Below are positions 1,329-54,528 of a DNA stretch of 56,280 bases, piece after piece. Position 1 is the stretch's first letter; every line of letters starts with the position of its first letter. Position numbers and translations under genes: made by a program. The DNA lies in NCBI GenBank assembly GCA_017649895.1, contig JAGCFW010000009.1:1-56280 (forward strand). The letters run 5' to 3'. Source of the stretch: Alphaproteobacteria bacterium. GTDB taxonomy: Bacteria > Pseudomonadota > Alphaproteobacteria > UBA3830. Below the pieces are notes generated by a model. It worked only from the letters and a program-made list of their open reading frames with translations. It made no database searches and was not told the origin of the DNA.

Positions 1329-3104
1329 ATGTCTACAGAACGAGTTGTGAGATGGTCTAAACTGATCGGGAATTTTTGGGAAGAGGCAAGTGAAAAAAGC
1401 ATATCCCCGAATGTCGTAGTATCCTACAGTTGTCGAAGCCAATCGGGTGAAGGTTTTGAAGAGTTGATAAACTCTCTGAATAGTAAGTTGATAAGCAGAA
1501 AAATTTCTCACGTTCATATTTGGGACACGTCGTATCTCTACCGCCATTCGATTCCAGAGTTTGAACAATATGCAGACCCTAGCGTCGAAACTAAATGGTT
1601 TAAAACGAACGAGAAAATTATCAATAAGTTGAAGTTGCCTCATACTTTACATTCTTGGACCGAAGGTTTGGACAGTCCGTTATTTGCGGAATGGCTCGAA
1701 AAAGTAAAAATTGCGTTCGCCGGAGATGAAACCGGGAACGGAATTATTCCAGATTTCCGCGAGATAGTTTTAGAAGAAGCGGAAAAGGCGACAATTAGAG
1801 CTAACGGAACCTTTGTTCAAAACGTTAGTTTCATTTTGGAAGAATGTGCTTACACATGTCTCTATTTCAAGAACAGTGTTATCATATATCCGACAAAGCT
1901 TTCTCCGCCAATCGCAAATATAATTCAACATTATCATTCGAATATCACGCATTTGCCTTACACCATGTCGAACAACGCGCAACGTCGCCAGCATCGCTCT
2001 TTGGATAGAAATGAAATAAATTGCGAAATAATCGAATTCATCACGAAAATCGCGAAAAACATAAATTTTTTCGTCATAAACAAGGACGGTACTATTGTTT
2101 ACAAGAATGAATCTCTGGGAAAAATTGTTTCAGATACCGATGCCACGGCGTTAAATCCAAAGACATGGGAAAATAGTCTCGAGGTAATCAATACCAAATC
2201 AACTATCGTCGTAGAAGAAGCAGATAAAGGAAGATTCTTTCTATCGGTAAAATCTCCTCTTATGGTGAACAACGAAATTGAGGGGGTGATCGGATTGTCC
2301 ATAGATATCACCGATTCGAAAAAGATTGAGCAGGAAAAAGAAAAAATCATAAAACTAGAATTTCTTAACAAGATTCAGCAGGCAAAAATTGATCTTCAGA
2401 CAGAATTCAGCCAATTTATTTCACAGATGGCTCACGATATCGCCTCTCCACTTGCAAGTCTGAGAGTTTTTACCCATAGTTGTTCTAACCTCACGGAAAG
2501 ACAGCAAAAAATGTTAACGAATATTACGAAAGATATTCGCAGTATATCGGACGATCTCTTACAAGAAAACAAACGTTGCAGAGAAAATTTGGAAAAACAG
2601 GACAAACGTCGCGTTTCGATTTTTTCAGTTTTACAGGACGAAATTAAACAAAAGAAGTTAGAATATAGAGGTACCGATGTAAACATAGGGCTCTCCTGTG
2701 AACCGTCGGCAAAATCTGCGATAGTGGATATTAATGTGTCTGACTTCAAAAGAATGATATCTAATCTCGTAAACAATGCAATAGAATCCGGCAGACACAA
2801 AGACAGCGTTTCAGTTAAGTTATTGCTTTATTGTTCAGGAAAAAATTTGGCTATAGAAGTTGAAGACAATGGAAAAGGAATGCCGAAGGAAATGACGGAT
2901 CAAATCCGAAATAATATTGCCCCAAAAAGTACTAAGCCAAATGGCTTCGGTTTGGGATTGGTTCAAATATTGGAAACGATCAAGCGCTACAACGGAGAAC
3001 TGGATATAACCTCTATCGAAGGCAAAGGAACGAAGTTTTCGATAAAATTCCCGATGGCTGATTTTGGTAATGCTGAGAAAAAATTCAGAGATAGCTGTAA
3101 ATAA
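1329..3104 (+). CDS. Cyclodipeptide-synthase-like domain fused to PAS-histidine kinase
   Basis: A 591-residue soluble protein. Residues 26-205 look like a tRNA-dependent cyclodipeptide synthase (CDPS) of the XYP subfamily. VVVS (Ser32) matches the catalytic serine loop; a GEGFEEL helix and DTSYLYRH follow; HSWTEGLDS...LEKVKIAF matches the central helices; SFILEEC aligns with the catalytic Tyr178/Glu182 helix of AlbC (Phe168, Glu172 here), and IIYP (Tyr187-Pro188) with Tyr202-Pro203. A PAS domain covers about 235-333 (INFFVINKDGTIVYKNES), a coiled linker follows, then a HisKA H-box with His369 (MAHDIASPLASL), N box (NLVNNAIES, about 479-487), EDNGKGMP and GFGLGLVQI of the ATPase domain. No membrane segment or receiver domain is seen. 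Known CDPSs make cyclodipeptides from two aminoacyl-tRNAs; here the domain may act as enzyme or sensor. The kinase call is certain; the CDPS call rests on recalled family motifs. Confidence 0.8.
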   Translation: MSTERVVRWSKLIGNFWEEASEKSISPNVVVSYSCRSQSGEGFEELINSLNSKLISRKISHVHIWDTSYLYRHSIPEFEQYADPSVETKWFKTNEKIINKLKLPHTLHSWTEGLDSPLFAEWLEKVKIAFAGDETGNGIIPDFREIVLEEAEKATIRANGTFVQNVSFILEECAYTCLYFKNSVIIYPTKLSPPIANIIQHYHSNITHLPYTMSNNAQRRQHRSLDRNEINCEIIEFITKIAKNINFFVINKDGTIVYKNESLGKIVSDTDATALNPKTWENSLEVINTKSTIVVEEADKGRFFLSVKSPLMVNNEIEGVIGLSIDITDSKKIEQEKEKIIKLEFLNKIQQAKIDLQTEFSQFISQMAHDIASPLASLRVFTHSCSNLTERQQKMLTNITKDIRSISDDLLQENKRCRENLEKQDKRRVSIFSVLQDEIKQKKLEYRGTDVNIGLSCEPSAKSAIVDINVSDFKRMISNLVNNAIESGRHKDSVSVKLLLYCSGKNLAIEVEDNGKGMPKEMTDQIRNNIAPKSTKPNGFGLGLVQILETIKRYNGELDITSIEGKGTKFSIKFPMADFGNAEKKFRDSCK

Positions 3105-41193: not shown

Positions 41194-43983
41194 TCACTTT
41201 TTTTCAGGATCAATCCTTTTTGTTAAAAGCAGATTTTTTCCCACGTAACACTCATTAAACTCGTAGTTTTTCCCGTAAATCGCTTCGAATATTTTCAAAC
41301 TATTTTCAAAATATTCTCTCATACTTTCGGAATTTTCATTAAAAGCCTTCCGTTTTTCTAAATCACCATAAGCTGACTCCGTCAGAATCTCTTTGCACAA
41401 CTTTCGGATGCTTTTGAAAAAGTCTCGGAAGTACTTTTGAGAAGCGCCAAAATTTTTCTTGCGACATTCAATTACAGCAGCATGATATACGCAGGTATCG
41501 TGCAACAAGTCACAATAATTATTCCTCTCTCTGTCTCCATAAGTATGTCCCCCTTTGTCCTCGTAATTTAACACATTTTCACATATCTGCATCGCTTCAT
41601 CTAACTTGTTAAGACGAATCAGGCACTCTACTTCATGACATTTAACTCTGAACAAATATTCTCCCTTCATTAATTTCGAGAAGAACGATTCAGATTCCAA
41701 GAAATACTTGTAGGCACGAGAAACTTTGCTCATACGAAGATAAGCCAACCCTCTTTCGAGAGCAATTATACCTCTCGCGTACAATGTATCAGCATTATAG
41801 TATCCGGCTTTATCAAGAGCTTTTTCGGCTTCCTTCGCCAAACCTAAAGCCTGCTGATACAATCCTAGAGCATTATAAATTCCCGCCAGCTTGGCCTTTT
41901 GGACATTTCTCCTGGTCGCAGCCGGCTCAAATTTGTCGAACTTTTCGTGAGATAATACTTCTATAGCCTTTTTCATTATGTCCACGGAAGCACGTGTATT
42001 GTCCCGATTTATTCCATCTACAAAATAATTAAAGGCCATATTTTCAAGGATATTAGATTCAAACAACCCTTTTCGAACATCTTCCATTTGTGCAAACTGC
42101 AGATGTTTTAGGGCAGATGTAAAACATTCATTGGACTGCTCAAACGCTCTCTGCCTCATACGAACAATACCCAATATCATATAGGCATGAACCTTTTCCA
42201 AACTGTTATCACGAAAAACCTTCAAACTCTCGACCAAATACTTATCCGCAAGAGAAATTTTATTCATCACCGTGTAAATCTCTCCCATCCTGAACTTTAC
42301 TCTTGCCAAATTATATTCACCTAAGCAATTGTTTCCTTCATTAATTTCAACAACTTTGCCGAGATATTCCATCGCCTCTTTCATTCTGTAAGACTTTGTC
42401 CTCAAAATTTCAGAGATCAACAACAGTACCCTGGATTTATCGCCGGCTATCTTCTCTCCCTTAACTTTCGAAATTTTGGATAACATAGCATCCAAATGAG
42501 GAATCAACGTTAATTTCCTATCGGCATTGTGAAAAATTACTTTAGTTATCGTGTGCACTGATGACGCCAACTCCTCATCCGTAAGCAATTCCGTAATGTA
42601 GTCGTACCCTATCTTGTGACTGCTTCTGTGAATAGAAATTTCCGCCCCCGAGTCAGTCACTAGCGACTTTTCCCTAAGTCTCCTTATGAAATTATCGGCA
42701 TTAAGCGTTCCTGCAATATCTTTGAGTATATATTTCGGAATATTCTGAGAATCTAATAGACTTAGAGTCAACAACAGTAACTTATACTCTGCTTTATTAT
42801 TTAAAACCTCCTTAAGTGACGAACTTATGATTCCGTATCGGGTTTCGCTGTATCCGGAATTCTCCCTTATCAAGTCTCTTTGCTCCGAATTAAGCTCATT
42901 GATACTTTTTGTGATCAACTGAGAATACTCATCCAAAGTGATATTAGTATTTTTTATGTAGTAGGCCGCTGCACTCACGTCCAGAGGAAACTCAGGTATC
43001 ATCGCCAAAAATTCTGAAACTTTTTTCTTATCTTCTAAATCAAGTTTGGCAAACTCCTTTCTGAAAACAATATTTGAAAACAATTCCTTCTTCTCTTGTT
43101 CTTCCAGTCTTCCGATATTTACCAAAGACTCTGCTTTTATAAAATTGTTGTTTCCCAAATTTTGATTCCTGGTCGTGATTAGGACACAGCCCTGCCCCCA
43201 AATCTCTTCATTTACAGGAAAATACTCTTTGATACTTTCAAAAAATCCTACGTTATCCATCAGCAGAACCCAGCTATCTTTTTGTTTCAACAACATCGAG
43301 ACAAGTCTGACCAACCTTTTCTTACGGTATTCTACGTCTTGCAAATTTCTAATGAGATCAATCTCTTTTCTCTGATCGGGATCCACCGCCAAATGATCCG
43401 CCAATTCCATGAACGAGTTATATAGAGTCTTCCCCGTTTCCGCATTGACTTCAAATTTAACATCTCCCTCTAGCAAAGATACAACTTTTCTCGCAACAGT
43501 AGTTTTTCCTGCTCCACCCGTTCCAAAGACCACGACAGTTCGTATTCCTTTCTGCCATTTCAGCTTTTGAATTATCTTATCTTCAATATACGGCCTGTTC
43601 AAAAAATTATCGGTAAAATTTGAAATGTTTGTTACTTCGAGAGGTTTGTGTTTTTTCGGATAAAGAAGTGCCGTTACTCCCAGAAGAATCAGTAAAATCA
43701 ATATCAGAGCATGTAGAAATCTTTTATCACCACTTAAAATCGAAATCTTTTTTACAATAAGATTTTCTTTATTCTTTTCGAAGAAATCCAACAATTCCTT
43801 CTTGGAATCAGCTTTCGTCTTTTCTTTCAAATTTTTCACATGATAATCTATCGCCTTTACTGAAATCGACAACTTCTCAGCTATCTCACGATAGGTTGCT
43901 CCCTTTTTCAGTTCTTCAACTATGGCCATTTCCTGACTGGAAAACTTGATCCCATTTATATCTATCTCGTACTTTTTACTCAT
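41194..43983 (-). CDS. Membrane-anchored LuxR-HTH / NB-ARC / TPR (STAND) protein
   Basis: A 929-residue protein. Residues 12-58 form a LuxR-type helix-turn-helix (FSSQEMAIVEELKKGATYRE, then KLSISVKAIDYHVKNLKEKT). A membrane segment lies at about 89-107 (FLHALILILLILLGVTALLY). The STAND ATPase follows: Walker A VVFGTGGAGKTTVA (about 151-164), Walker B SWVLLMDNV (about 245) and the arginine strand CVLITTRNQ. A winged-helix part and about ten TPR-like repeats fill the rest to the C-terminus. This order puts the DNA-binding domain in the cytoplasm before the membrane and the sensor outside or, if the segment is a loop, inside. Ligand and targets are unknown. ATG 43983 with GAGAT upstream is chosen. 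Confidence 0.85.
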   Translation of the reverse strand: MSKKYEIDINGIKFSSQEMAIVEELKKGATYREIAEKLSISVKAIDYHVKNLKEKTKADSKKELLDFFEKNKENLIVKKISILSGDKRFLHALILILLILLGVTALLYPKKHKPLEVTNISNFTDNFLNRPYIEDKIIQKLKWQKGIRTVVVFGTGGAGKTTVARKVVSLLEGDVKFEVNAETGKTLYNSFMELADHLAVDPDQRKEIDLIRNLQDVEYRKKRLVRLVSMLLKQKDSWVLLMDNVGFFESIKEYFPVNEEIWGQGCVLITTRNQNLGNNNFIKAESLVNIGRLEEQEKKELFSNIVFRKEFAKLDLEDKKKVSEFLAMIPEFPLDVSAAAYYIKNTNITLDEYSQLITKSINELNSEQRDLIRENSGYSETRYGIISSSLKEVLNNKAEYKLLLLTLSLLDSQNIPKYILKDIAGTLNADNFIRRLREKSLVTDSGAEISIHRSSHKIGYDYITELLTDEELASSVHTITKVIFHNADRKLTLIPHLDAMLSKISKVKGEKIAGDKSRVLLLISEILRTKSYRMKEAMEYLGKVVEINEGNNCLGEYNLARVKFRMGEIYTVMNKISLADKYLVESLKVFRDNSLEKVHAYMILGIVRMRQRAFEQSNECFTSALKHLQFAQMEDVRKGLFESNILENMAFNYFVDGINRDNTRASVDIMKKAIEVLSHEKFDKFEPAATRRNVQKAKLAGIYNALGLYQQALGLAKEAEKALDKAGYYNADTLYARGIIALERGLAYLRMSKVSRAYKYFLESESFFSKLMKGEYLFRVKCHEVECLIRLNKLDEAMQICENVLNYEDKGGHTYGDRERNNYCDLLHDTCVYHAAVIECRKKNFGASQKYFRDFFKSIRKLCKEILTESAYGDLEKRKAFNENSESMREYFENSLKIFEAIYGKNYEFNECYVGKNLLLTKRIDPEKK

Positions 43984-44109
43984 CTTCACATCTCTATACT
44001 AACTATGAGTTACGCTAGCATGAGTAGAATGATTTTGTAAATAAGAAAAATTGAGAACAAGTGCAAATTGGCAAACCAAGATTTAAATCTTGGAATTAAA
44101 AGACAAAAC

Positions 44110-50625: not shown

Positions 50626-52035
50626 TCAGGCTCTACTGACAGCTAAACTTGAATTATACGGTCGACTCAAAGTTTTTAAATATTTCCCTAAAACATACAT
50701 CGTAACAAATGTCACTACTGCTCCTACAACTTGACTTACCACAGCACAATCCTCTGAAACAGAATACCTAAAAAAAACAATAGAAACAAATCCTACAACA
50801 ATACTAACCAAATAAGTTTTTATATCCGTTTTGAAATTTAATAAATACAACAACATTGGAGCGACAACGGTCGGGGTCCAAAAATTCGAGAAATACAGCC
50901 CAAAATCAACCATACTGGAAAACTTAGTAGCGGCATTGATGGACACAATTCCGAGCAACACCGTAATCCCTCTGCTTAACATCAATTCCGACTTATCATT
51001 CATTCTAGACGGCCACAGAACAGCAAAAACATCCTTCGTTACAGCAATAGCAGAAACATTCAAAAATGAATCGGCCGTAGACATGATGACGGCCAGAACT
51101 CCGGAAATCGCAATCCCTTTCACAACTGTCGGAAGCGAATAGTCCAGCACATTTAAGAAAGCATTGTTCGGATCTATCCCCGGAAACATCAAAACTGCAC
51201 TCAAAGCTATAATGGATATCACTGCATAAAACGGAACATACAAAATACCGGAAATCACAAGAGATTGTGACGCTTGTCTCTCATCCTTTGCCATCAATAT
51301 CCTTTGGATTATCATCGGACTAAATCCCGGAAATACAAAATAAATGAAATATACAACAAATAACAAAAAAGAACCTTGATAAGAAGTCAGTTCAAGGTGT
51401 TGTTCCGGCAAATTAAACAAAAGATATTCCCAACCACCGACTTTTTCCAGCGCGACATTAGCCATCAGCGGTATTCCGATTATTAAAATACCAAACTGCA
51501 ATACATCCGTGAAAACCACCGATCTTATTCCTCCGAATGAAGAATACATTATCACAATGAAGCTTCCAATAACCGTCCCAAAAAAATGCGATACTCCGAA
51601 AAACAGATTACATATATACCCAATAGCACTAACCTGAACAGCTATATACCCGATAGAAAATAATACATTCGCAACACCACTCATAATCTGCCCGGGCTTA
51701 CCGTACAAATCTCCCATTATTTCACCAATCGAAACCTTATCCGGGAAATCTCTGAGAACCTTCGGAGCAATTACACGTGCGTGAAAAAAAAGGCTCAAAG
51801 TCTGTCCTAACACAAGAACAAAAAACGCCAACCCGACACTGTATACTCGTTCACTGACACCGATCAGATCGTCTCCCCCCATCCAGGTTGCGAAGATAGT
51901 CGACACCAAAACAGACGTAGGAAAAATCTTCGATGAAACCGAAAAATCTTTCATACTCTTTACATTACGTCCCGCCAAAATTCCCACGGCGAGAGTAACA
52001 ACCAAATACAAAACTACAATAACTAAATCTATCAT
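50626..52035 (-). CDS. Sodium:solute symporter (SSS), copy 1
   Basis: A 469-residue transporter with about 13 membrane segments of the SLC5/SSS family. It begins MIDLVIVVLYLVVTLAVGIL; GGIRSVVFTDVLQFGILIIG is the conserved sodium-site helix, and VIMSTADSFLNVSAIAVTKD the later conserved part. The substrate cannot be read from sequence; proline, pantothenate and other organic solutes are typical. It stands directly before the CqsS-like kinase and is close kin of the gene at 52219. Confidence 0.9.
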   Translation of the reverse strand: MIDLVIVVLYLVVTLAVGILAGRNVKSMKDFSVSSKIFPTSVLVSTIFATWMGGDDLIGVSERVYSVGLAFFVLVLGQTLSLFFHARVIAPKVLRDFPDKVSIGEIMGDLYGKPGQIMSGVANVLFSIGYIAVQVSAIGYICNLFFGVSHFFGTVIGSFIVIMYSSFGGIRSVVFTDVLQFGILIIGIPLMANVALEKVGGWEYLLFNLPEQHLELTSYQGSFLLFVVYFIYFVFPGFSPMIIQRILMAKDERQASQSLVISGILYVPFYAVISIIALSAVLMFPGIDPNNAFLNVLDYSLPTVVKGIAISGVLAVIMSTADSFLNVSAIAVTKDVFAVLWPSRMNDKSELMLSRGITVLLGIVSINAATKFSSMVDFGLYFSNFWTPTVVAPMLLYLLNFKTDIKTYLVSIVVGFVSIVFFRYSVSEDCAVVSQVVGAVVTFVTMYVLGKYLKTLSRPYNSSLAVSRA

Positions 52036-52144
52036 AAAAAAAACCTTCTCTCACTCACTAGAAAAAGGTTACAAAATTACAAATAAAAACTCAACTTAAA
52101 AAACTGGAGACCTCCTCATCCTCAAATTCCAAACGATTGAAAAA

Positions 52145-52203
52145 ACAAAAAAAACATAACCGAATGACACTCTGCTGCAGCACGCAGCGCGTTCGTCGGT
52201 TAT
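52145..52203 (-). terminator. Terminator between the two symporter genes
   Basis: On the minus strand ATAACCGA and TCGGTTAT (52196-52203 and 52156-52163) form the base of a large hairpin with an inner CTGC/GCAG stem, followed by GTTTTTTTTG. It lies 16 bases behind the stop of copy 2, so the two symporter genes are separate transcripts. Confidence 0.8.
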
Positions 52204-52218
52204 ATCACTAATAGTAAT

Positions 52219-53628
52219 TTAAATCCTACTAACAACCAATTTTGAATCGTAAGGATGACTTAAATTTCCAAAATATTTTCCCAGTATAAGCATAGAAAAA
52301 AACGTTACTACCGCTCCGAAGATCTGACTTACAACGGTACAATTCTCTGGAACTGAATACCTAAAAATAATGATGGAAATAAATCCTATCGACACACCAA
52401 TCAAGTAGGTTTTTATATCGGTCTTTAAATTAAACAAATACAGAAACATTGGAGCAACAACCGCCGGAGTCCAAAAATTCGAAAAAAACAATCCGAACTC
52501 AACCATGCTATAGAACATTGTCGCCACATAAATAGACGCCACCCCCAACAACACAGTAACTGTCCTACTCAACATCAACTCCCGCTTATCATTCACTTTA
52601 GTGGGACATAATACAGAAAAAACATCCCTCGTAGCAGCGATTGATGCAGCATTCAAAAGAGAATCTGCTGTCGACATAAAAGCTGATAACATACCAGAAA
52701 TCGCGATCCCTTTCACAATTGTCGGAAGAGAATAATCTAACACATTTAAGAAAGCACTATTCGAATCTATACCTGGAAATATCAAAATAGCACAAAGGGC
52801 TATAACGGACACCACCGCAAAGAATGGAATACATAGAATTCCAGAAATTGCCAAAGACCGAGTAGCCTGTCTCTCATCTTTTGCCATCAAAATTCTCTGC
52901 ACTAATGCCGGCAAAAAACTAGGAAAAGCACACCAAGAAAAATACGCAATAAACGACCAAAATGATCCCTCATAAGAAGTTAATTCAGTATATTTAGGTG
53001 GTAAGCTATTCATCAGGTATTCCCATCCACCAACTTTTCCCAAAGCAACACTCGCCATCAAAGGTATTCCGATTATCAAAACTCCAAATTGCAATACATC
53101 AGTAAAAACAACTGATCTTATTCCCCCAAAAGAAGAATAAGCTACTATGATCCCCCCCCCTATAATAATTCCATAAAATTCAGAAACTCCAAAAAACTGA
53201 TTACAAATAAACCCTATTGCCCTAACTTGCATCGAAATACATCCAACGGAAAATAAAATATTTGCAACGCCACTCATAACCTGCCCTGGATTGCCGTACA
53301 AATCACCCATGATTTCACCTATAGAGATCCTATTTGAAAATCCTCTAATAATTTTCGGTGCAACTACGTAAGCTTGAAAGAAAAAATTCAAACTCACCCC
53401 TAATATAACCACAAAATACACTAATCCAACGCTATATACTCGCTCGCTCACTCCAATTAAACAGTCTGCTCCCATCCATGTTGCAAAAATGGTAGATATT
53501 AAAACTGACGTAGGAAAAATTTTTGCAGAAACAGAGAAATCCTTCATATTTTTCACGTTACGTCCTGCGAAAATTCCCAAAGCAAGAGTAACAATCAAAT
53601 ACAAAACTACAATAATCAAATCTATCAT
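52219..53628 (-). CDS. Sodium:solute symporter (SSS), copy 2
   Basis: A 469-residue SSS transporter, the same length as copy 1 and alike over its whole length (MIDLIIVVLYLIVTLALGIF; GGIRSVVFTDVLQFGVLIIG). Clear differences lie in the third membrane region and in the loop before residue 240, so substrates may differ. The gene and its leader look like a tandem duplication of copy 1. It is flanked by terminators on both sides and so is a single-gene unit. Confidence 0.9.
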   Translation of the reverse strand: MIDLIIVVLYLIVTLALGIFAGRNVKNMKDFSVSAKIFPTSVLISTIFATWMGADCLIGVSERVYSVGLVYFVVILGVSLNFFFQAYVVAPKIIRGFSNRISIGEIMGDLYGNPGQVMSGVANILFSVGCISMQVRAIGFICNQFFGVSEFYGIIIGGGIIVAYSSFGGIRSVVFTDVLQFGVLIIGIPLMASVALGKVGGWEYLMNSLPPKYTELTSYEGSFWSFIAYFSWCAFPSFLPALVQRILMAKDERQATRSLAISGILCIPFFAVVSVIALCAILIFPGIDSNSAFLNVLDYSLPTIVKGIAISGMLSAFMSTADSLLNAASIAATRDVFSVLCPTKVNDKRELMLSRTVTVLLGVASIYVATMFYSMVEFGLFFSNFWTPAVVAPMFLYLFNLKTDIKTYLIGVSIGFISIIIFRYSVPENCTVVSQIFGAVVTFFSMLILGKYFGNLSHPYDSKLVVSRI

Positions 53629-53778: not shown

Positions 53779-54528
53779 TTATATAGTGCCGGGAACACCC
53801 GACATAGCGTTAAGTTCATGAGGAGAATTCAACGCCTTTTCGCTCGATTGCGAATCTATATCTTTTATAGTGTATCCTCTGCCCCAGATGGTCTCAATAT
53901 AACATTCTCCGCCGAGAGCATCCATGAGTTTCTTCCGCAGTTTGCAGACGAATACATCTATTATCTTTAACTCAGGTTCGTCCATGCCACCATACAAGTG
54001 GTTCAAGAACATATCTTTGGTCAACGTGGCACCTTTTCTCAAGCAAAGCAACTCCAAAATTGAGTACTCCTTACCTGTAAGATGCAGGACATTGCCATCG
54101 ACTTCCACGCGACGACTCTGAAGGTTAACTGTCATTCTGCCGATCTTTATAACTGACTCGGCATGGCCCTTAGACCTCCTTATAACTGCCTGAATTCTGG
54201 ACACCAACTCCTTCCCGTCGAAAGGCTTAGTAATATAATCATCAGCCCCAATATCCAAGCACTTAACTTTATCCTTACACTCAGATAATCCCGAAACCAC
54301 GATAACTGGCGTTCCTATGTTCGCACTACGCAGTCTCTTAATTACCTCTACCCCGTCAATGTCGGGCAGCATCAAATCCAAAATGATACCATCATAGTCG
54401 TAAATCTTTCCAACCTCTAAACCGTACTGCCCAAAACTCGTAGAGTCAACCACTACACCCTCTTTTTTTAACAAAGACTCTATCCCCTTAGCAGTTAAGG
54501 TATCATCTTCTATCAATAATACTCGCAC
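53779..54528 (-). CDS. ctrA: Cell cycle response regulator CtrA
   Basis: A 249-residue OmpR-type regulator. The receiver domain (1-118) has MRVLLIEDDTLTAKGIESLL, the phosphoacceptor Asp in IILDLMLPDIDGVEV and GADDYITKPFDGKELVSRI. The DNA-binding domain reads TGKEYSILELLCLRKGATLT, KDMFLNHLYGGMDEPELKII and TIWGRGYTI, which is the CtrA pattern. CtrA controls division and cell-cycle genes in alphaproteobacteria by binding TTAA-N7-TTAA. The start is GTG 54528, with GGAGG 6 bases upstream. The C-terminal tail after RGYTI is about 20 residues long. An IS remnant lies 270 bases upstream of the gene. Confidence 0.93.
   Translation of the reverse strand: MRVLLIEDDTLTAKGIESLLKKEGVVVDSTSFGQYGLEVGKIYDYDGIILDLMLPDIDGVEVIKRLRSANIGTPVIVVSGLSECKDKVKCLDIGADDYITKPFDGKELVSRIQAVIRRSKGHAESVIKIGRMTVNLQSRRVEVDGNVLHLTGKEYSILELLCLRKGATLTKDMFLNHLYGGMDEPELKIIDVFVCKLRKKLMDALGGECYIETIWGRGYTIKDIDSQSSEKALNSPHELNAMSGVPGTI

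Follow-up and report, generated by a model that had tools for sequence, protein, structure and literature searches.

What is the N-terminal region of the PAS-histidine kinase encoded near one end of a 56,280-nucleotide stretch of alphaproteobacterial DNA (the window), and what might it sense? The source bacterium is a gut symbiont, with a genome that is 79% complete. The initial annotation had read this region as a cyclodipeptide synthase (CDPS)-like domain fused to the kinase, and had proposed that the protein senses charged tRNA or detects a cyclodipeptide of its own making. The fusion is now supported by profile, by predicted fold, and by conservation across dozens of genomes. With respect to function, the evidence for the window protein leans to sensing of charged tRNA over a self-sensed cyclodipeptide.

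Domain layout of the window protein

The features of the gene are collected in Table 1. The HisKA and HATPase_c matches both exceed the Pfam cut-offs, and in the ATPase domain the N box starts at residue 479 and the D box at residue 513. The PAS_4 match is weak; a PAS-like fold is present in the predicted model, although the full-length model gives no reliable picture of how the domains pack (pTM 0.41). Alignment indicates that this PAS domain is shorter than those of the two-gene relatives described below and that it is missing their YxGCN segment.

Table 1. Features of the CDPS-kinase gene, in window coordinates
Feature	Positions	Strand	Basis
CDS, CDPS-derived domain - PAS - HisKA - HATPase histidine kinase	1329..3104	+	591 aa; ORF, Pfam, relatives
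CDPS-derived input domain, residues 1-215	1329..1973	+	PDB profile search, model and fold search, hhalign, dN/dS
Ser32, equivalent to AlbC catalytic nucleophile Ser37	1422..1424	+	40/41 relatives
Phe168 at catalytic Tyr178 position	1830..1832	+	Phe in 41/41 relatives
Glu171-Glu172; Glu172 equivalent to AlbC Glu182	1839..1844	+	Glu172 39/41, Glu171 41/41
Tyr187-Pro188, XYP signature (Tyr202-Pro203)	1887..1892	+	41/41
Short PAS domain, residues 244-327	2058..2309	+	PAS_4 E 0.0047 (sub-threshold), model, alignment
Two-helix dimerisation and phosphotransfer region, residues 328-425	2310..2603	+	HisKA 1.1e-6, H-box HDIASPL, model
Phospho-acceptor His369, in HDIASPL	2433-2435	+	HisKA match above cut-off
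ATPase domain, residues 428-577	2610..3059	+	HATPase_c 6.6e-19; NLVNN, DNGKG

Hydropathy revealed no transmembrane segment in the window protein, which points to a soluble kinase. The protein also has no receiver domain, and no remnant of one was seen when the three frames 3' of the ORF were inspected by eye. A separate response regulator must therefore accept the phosphate. Eight receiver-domain matches were found in the window's own genome. An OmpR-type response regulator gene, the only regulator of that kind noted in the window, lies at its far end (53779-54528), adjoined by two adjacent sodium:solute symporter genes (50626-53628, - strand). The window also encodes, at 41194-43989 (- strand), a 931-residue protein with a LuxR-type HTH and an NB-ARC (STAND) module, in a genome of about 1.1 Mb.

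A tRNA-Ser(TGA) gene (1071-1160, - strand) is located upstream of the CDPS-kinase gene in divergent orientation. A dedicated tRNA gene partner was considered and rejected, since most related loci are without a nearby tRNA gene and the few genes found differ in identity.

Identity of the N-terminal domain

Residues 1-215 almost certainly constitute a CDPS-derived domain of the XYP type. The motifs listed in the initial annotation, i.e., VVVS (Ser32), GEGFEEL, DTSYLYRH, SFILEEC (Phe168 and Glu172), and IIYP (Tyr187-Pro188), are all where it had placed them. In a phmmer search of the PDB with residues 1-219, the top four matches are CDPSs (E 0.003 to 0.18). Relatives of the domain are termed A-type here; after removal of duplicates, 41 A-type domains and 42 full proteins were aligned. 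A profile of the 41 domains places six CDPSs at the top of the PDB (5ocd, E 2.1e-8; 5mlp, 1.2e-7; 9i5m, 8e-7; 5mlq, 8.5e-7; 9iam, 2.4e-6; 6y4b, 3.1e-6), with the next protein at E 0.5. When three genuine XYP CDPSs from other alphaproteobacteria were compared with the A-type family by hhalign, the score was 72 (E 1.8e-10), and 60 column shuffles gave scores of at most 21.7. As judged from these sequence comparisons, the likeness is not due to chance.

The structural evidence agrees. An AlphaFold model of the domain, built from 14 sequences, has a pLDDT of 87.6, and its best 38 Foldseek matches in the PDB are all CDPSs (top E 4.6e-11), with tyrosyl-tRNA synthetases coming next. The VIA Z score of the model is 20.7 to 5ocd, 19.4 to 5mlp of Rickettsiella, and 16.9 to the tRNA-bound 6y4b; it is 11-12.5 to classical NYH enzymes such as AlbC and about 11 to TyrRS-like chains. 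Thus, the predicted fold of the window domain is the Rossmann-like fold of CDPSs, which is related to that of class Ic synthetases, and the comparison with AlbC and the Rickettsiella enzyme suggested in the initial annotation speaks for its reading.

The Pfam family search suggested alongside it was negative: PF16715 matches neither the window domain (E up to 10) nor the 41 homologues (E up to 1), and for this reason annotation pipelines would miss the A-type domain. This failure is the one point in favor of an unrelated sensor domain with coincidental motifs. That explanation was rejected on the basis of the profile, the predicted fold, and the shuffle-controlled hhalign comparison, all of which point to a CDPS, and we consider it extremely improbable.

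The active site of the A-type family

The A-type family retains equivalents of Ser37, Glu182, and Tyr202-Pro203, with frequencies given in Table 1, and position 35, corresponding to the variable X40 of the XYP signature, is Cys in 34 of the 41 domains. The equivalent of Tyr178 is not retained. In the profile alignment, Phe168 is aligned with the Tyr of 5ocd, 5mlp, and 5mlq, so the substitution reported in the initial annotation is right and moreover invariant in the family. Ser37, Tyr178, Glu182, and Tyr202 are almost strictly conserved among active CDPSs (PMC7566563), and the Y178F replacement considerably weakens AlbC, in its activity as well as in the formation of the aminoacyl-enzyme (PMC5935735). 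Complex formation with charged tRNA persists in a CDPS made catalytically dead by the S32A change (PMC7566563).

Between the window protein and its relative at locus L021, dN/dS is 0.067 for the CDPS-derived domain, 0.036 for the PAS domain, and 0.125 for the kinase; the CDPS-derived domain is under strong purifying selection. Taken with the Y178F literature, this value makes the domain look like a CDPS with a slowed first step rather than one in decay. The near invariance of Ser, Glu, and Tyr-Pro suggests that chemistry, and not only binding, has been kept.

Distribution of the A-type fusion

Homologues with the same fusion, which the initial annotation had proposed to look for, are present in dozens of genomes; most of the sequences compared come from metagenome-assembled genomes. 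The A-type domain occurs in 25 of the 50 genomes of the window's order, all of them in a single family (25 of its 41 genomes). A scan of 84,980 species genomes with the A-type domain yielded 13 loci, titled Holosporaceae, Holosporales, uncultured or unspecified (alpha)proteobacteria, or Candidatus Endomicrobiellum (Elusimicrobiota). No relatives of the window domain were found in plasmids, phages, or viral contigs. Among the 42 full proteins, HATPase_c was detected in 30, HisKA in 17, and a receiver domain in 12 (E 0.01), those without kinase domain matches being mostly broken or cut by contig ends.

In the Endomicrobiellum family, 19 of 77 genomes contain A-type matches, many of which are fragments or carry stops; two copies (L027 and L028) sit inside long contigs of 135 and 71 kb. 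A gene transfer from UBA3830-type alphaproteobacteria to Endomicrobiellum has been documented for a nucleotide transporter (PMC11257099). The A-type family occurs in both lineages joined by that transfer, and one of its loci (L022) is itself titled UBA3830. Up to ten A-type matches, many with stops or fragmentary, were counted per genome in the Endomicrobiellum set G101-G143 (e.g., L094, L096, and L103), as if a once expanded family were now decaying.

Some gene arrangements are also worth recording. At one locus (L038:1417-4541), an A-type domain of 226 residues without a kinase (L038:1417-2091) and a complete A-type CDPS-kinase are encoded head to head, in divergent orientation. Tandem A-type CDPS-kinase genes are found in three genomes (L042:3233-7655, L046:3536-6775, and L034:1061-5799).

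Other CDPS types on the same kinase

Searches with the PAS-kinase half of the window protein uncovered close kinases carrying two further kinds of N-terminal domain, types B and C. Linkage of a CDPS to this kind of kinase, as claimed in the initial annotation, is not unique to the window gene.

Type B, represented by 12 aligned domains, has no Pfam or PDB match. Genuine XYP CDPSs align with it by hhalign at E 1.8e-7 with a score of 55, compared with no more than 22.7 for the shuffles and with 47 for the positive control (XYP versus NYK CDPSs). The identity of type B rests on this match to XYP CDPSs, because the direct comparison of types A and B is not significant (E 0.009, score 25, with shuffles reaching 27). 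Equivalents of Ser, Tyr178, and Glu182 are kept in 12/12 type B domains; at Tyr202, where the alignment is by profile only, all 12 apparently have His. Type C is a PF16715-positive CDPS fused to the kinase (L061/L054, E 9e-58; L152, E 2e-44). The full set of four catalytic residues is retained at locus L054, and L152 carries Cys in place of Tyr202. Fusion may have been accompanied by the loss of one of the catalytic tyrosines, although few independent events are involved and L054 is an exception.

Types A, B, or C, fused or paired, are present in 31 of the 41 genomes of the window's family. In a tree of the kinase part the types are interleaved, with at least 5 changes for A and at least 7 for B on well supported branches. 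It follows that CDPS-type inputs have been exchanged repeatedly on one kinase backbone, and this swapping is the strongest sign that the three types do equivalent work.

These observations bear on the possibility that the CDPS-derived domain is a structural or protein-interaction module, serving dimerisation or docking to an aminoacyl-tRNA synthetase or a host protein, with no role for tRNA or cyclodipeptide. The alteration of one catalytic residue in A and in B would fit such a module, as would a sequence that holds no evidence of substrate identity. However, the other active-site residues belong to the best-conserved positions of the domain, and three different CDPS types in the same place would not be expected from scaffold use alone. 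We therefore regard this explanation as improbable.

Two-gene versions

CDPS genes are also found directly upstream of separate PAS-kinase genes. In genome G023, 24 bases separate an intact CDPS gene (L055) from the PAS-kinase-receiver gene that follows it. In a second alphaproteobacterial family, all four CDPS loci found, i.e., one each in G069 and G867 and two in G868 (L134, L158, L159, and L160, the last frameshifted), directly precede a PAS-kinase gene. Legionella lytica PCM 2298 has a CDPS gene on a plasmid, with a 14-nt overlap to the gene of a 676-residue PAS-HisKA-HATPase-REC-Hpt kinase (WP_252582640.1/WP_252582639.1). In the intact stand-alone CDPSs encoded next to PAS-kinases, Ser, Tyr178, Glu182, and Tyr202 are all present, and the PAS domains of the two-gene versions are of one common, full-length PAS_4 type (YxGCN, GKTD). 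In contrast, the CDPSs of one Streptomyces and one Priestia plasmid adjoin a metal pump and a P450 gene. PF16715 had no match in an even sample of 398 Pseudomonadota, in which the control likewise matched nowhere, so this result carries no weight. The fusion probably arose from a two-gene CDPS and PAS-kinase unit of protist-associated bacteria.

What the window protein may sense

In our opinion, there is about an even chance that the window protein is a soluble sensor kinase whose CDPS-derived input domain binds aminoacyl-tRNA and controls the kinase. The domain would take up one or a few aminoacyl-tRNAs and would load or process the charged tRNA slowly, as the impaired aminoacyl-enzyme formation of the equivalent AlbC mutant suggests. 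The short PAS domain and the coiled coil would pass the occupied or acylated state on to His369. Phosphate flow, received by an unlinked response regulator, would then report how much of one or a few aminoacyl-tRNAs is available, i.e., the supply of amino acids taken from the host.

The main competing explanation is that a single chain acts as both synthase and receptor. A cyclodipeptide made by the CDPS domain from charged tRNA would be bound by the PAS domain, either of that kinase molecule or of its partner in the dimer, and the kinase would report aminoacyl-tRNA supply or cell density through this small molecule. This is possible, though in our opinion less likely than tRNA sensing for the window protein. 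In its favor are the intact CDPS genes that immediately precede PAS-kinase genes, and the uniform, full-length PAS of the two-gene versions. A diffusible product fits better with the two-gene versions, which encode intact separate enzymes, and with the fused L054, which has four catalytic residues. The window family itself keeps Ser32, Glu172, and Tyr187, and this apparent retention of chemistry counts against pure tRNA sensing. On the other side, the fused forms appear catalytically altered, which favors tRNA sensing: Phe replaces Tyr178 throughout the A-type, and Tyr202 is apparently lost to His in type B and replaced by Cys in the fused L152. Furthermore, the A-type PAS domain, being shortened and without the YxGCN segment, looks less like a ligand sensor than does the two-gene PAS.

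Replacement of the stringent response by the CDPS-kinase was also considered and was rejected. A Rel/SpoT protein is encoded in 45 of the 50 genomes of the window's order, so another starvation sensor exists.

Relation to known systems

To our knowledge, CDPSs are known only as biosynthetic enzymes. We know of no histidine kinase that takes its signal from the aminoacyl-tRNA pool, and of no demonstrated case in which a CDPS and a kinase are dedicated to a cyclodipeptide signal. The eukaryotic kinase GCN2 has a HisRS-like domain and senses uncharged tRNA or stalled ribosomes. As in the window protein, a synthetase-like fold is coupled to a kinase, an arrangement that could allow tRNA charging to be read; the analogy is one of logic only, because GCN2 differs in having an unrelated kinase and a class II synthetase fold. 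Synthase-receptor pairs such as CqsA/CqsS, in which a small-molecule synthase is encoded together with the histidine kinase that perceives its product, resemble the CDPS-kinase in their pairing of synthase and kinase, whereas in the window protein the synthase-like domain and the kinase form one chain.

A broader proposal, which we hold only tentatively and with the balance slightly against it, is that these proteins represent a class of sensor kinases reading charged tRNA directly. In this class, a CDPS site would be tuned by the loss of one tyrosine (Tyr178 in A, Tyr202 in B), and aminoacyl-tRNA, or an acyl- or dipeptidyl-enzyme, would be the signalling state. Such GCN2-like logic in prokaryotes would have evolved by fusion and swapping of CDPS modules in protist and gut symbionts.

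The closest relatives of known structure are the XYP CDPSs of Fluoribacter dumoffii (5ocd), Rickettsiella grylli (5mlp), Nocardia brasiliensis (5mlq/9iam), and Glomeribacter (6y4b). The window domain shares with them the fold (Z 16.9-20.7), the equivalents of Ser37, Glu182, Tyr202, and X40-P203, and an L-x-R motif, at an identity of about 15-20%. It differs by the invariant Phe at Tyr178, by its fusion to a histidine kinase, and by the failure of PF16715. Described CDPS fusions involve a methyltransferase, a P450, or an ABC transporter (Gondry 2018). In these, as in the window protein, the CDPS is N-terminal in a multidomain protein; their partners are pathway tailoring or export domains, whereas the partner here is a signalling kinase.

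No CDPS-histidine-kinase fusion was found to be described in a search of 5.39 million open-access papers. In this respect the initial annotation, which knew of no such fusion, stands. The pairing as such was partly anticipated: PAS domains were noted in 2018 as being among the commonest non-biosynthetic neighbors of CDPSs, and a possible signalling role was proposed for the products (Skinnider 2018, PMC5767969). The CDPS and PAS-histidine-kinase pairs reported here link a CDPS to a PAS kinase as the window protein does, but with separate genes, intact catalytic residues, NYH/NYK type, and a full-length PAS. The fusion, the swapping of inputs, and types A and B were not anticipated.

Kinases whose CDPS inputs are interchangeable would either sense tRNA charging directly or constitute the first system in which a cyclodipeptide synthase is dedicated to a receptor. 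They point to an undescribed bacterial route from charged-tRNA state to signal, and either outcome would make it testable whether bacteria signal with cyclodipeptides or CDPS chemistry. The two-gene version of the cultured Legionella lytica PCM 2298 and the soluble fusion proteins provide practical material.

Finally, in three other alphaproteobacterial families, XYP CDPS genes are located directly downstream of an HTH_3 regulator gene (L135:660-2151, L136:1174-2692, and L137:737-2160). The regulators of L135 and L137 are 43% identical over 213 residues, including their unassigned C-terminal halves. This arrangement may represent a second CDPS-regulator pairing, with a one-component regulator.
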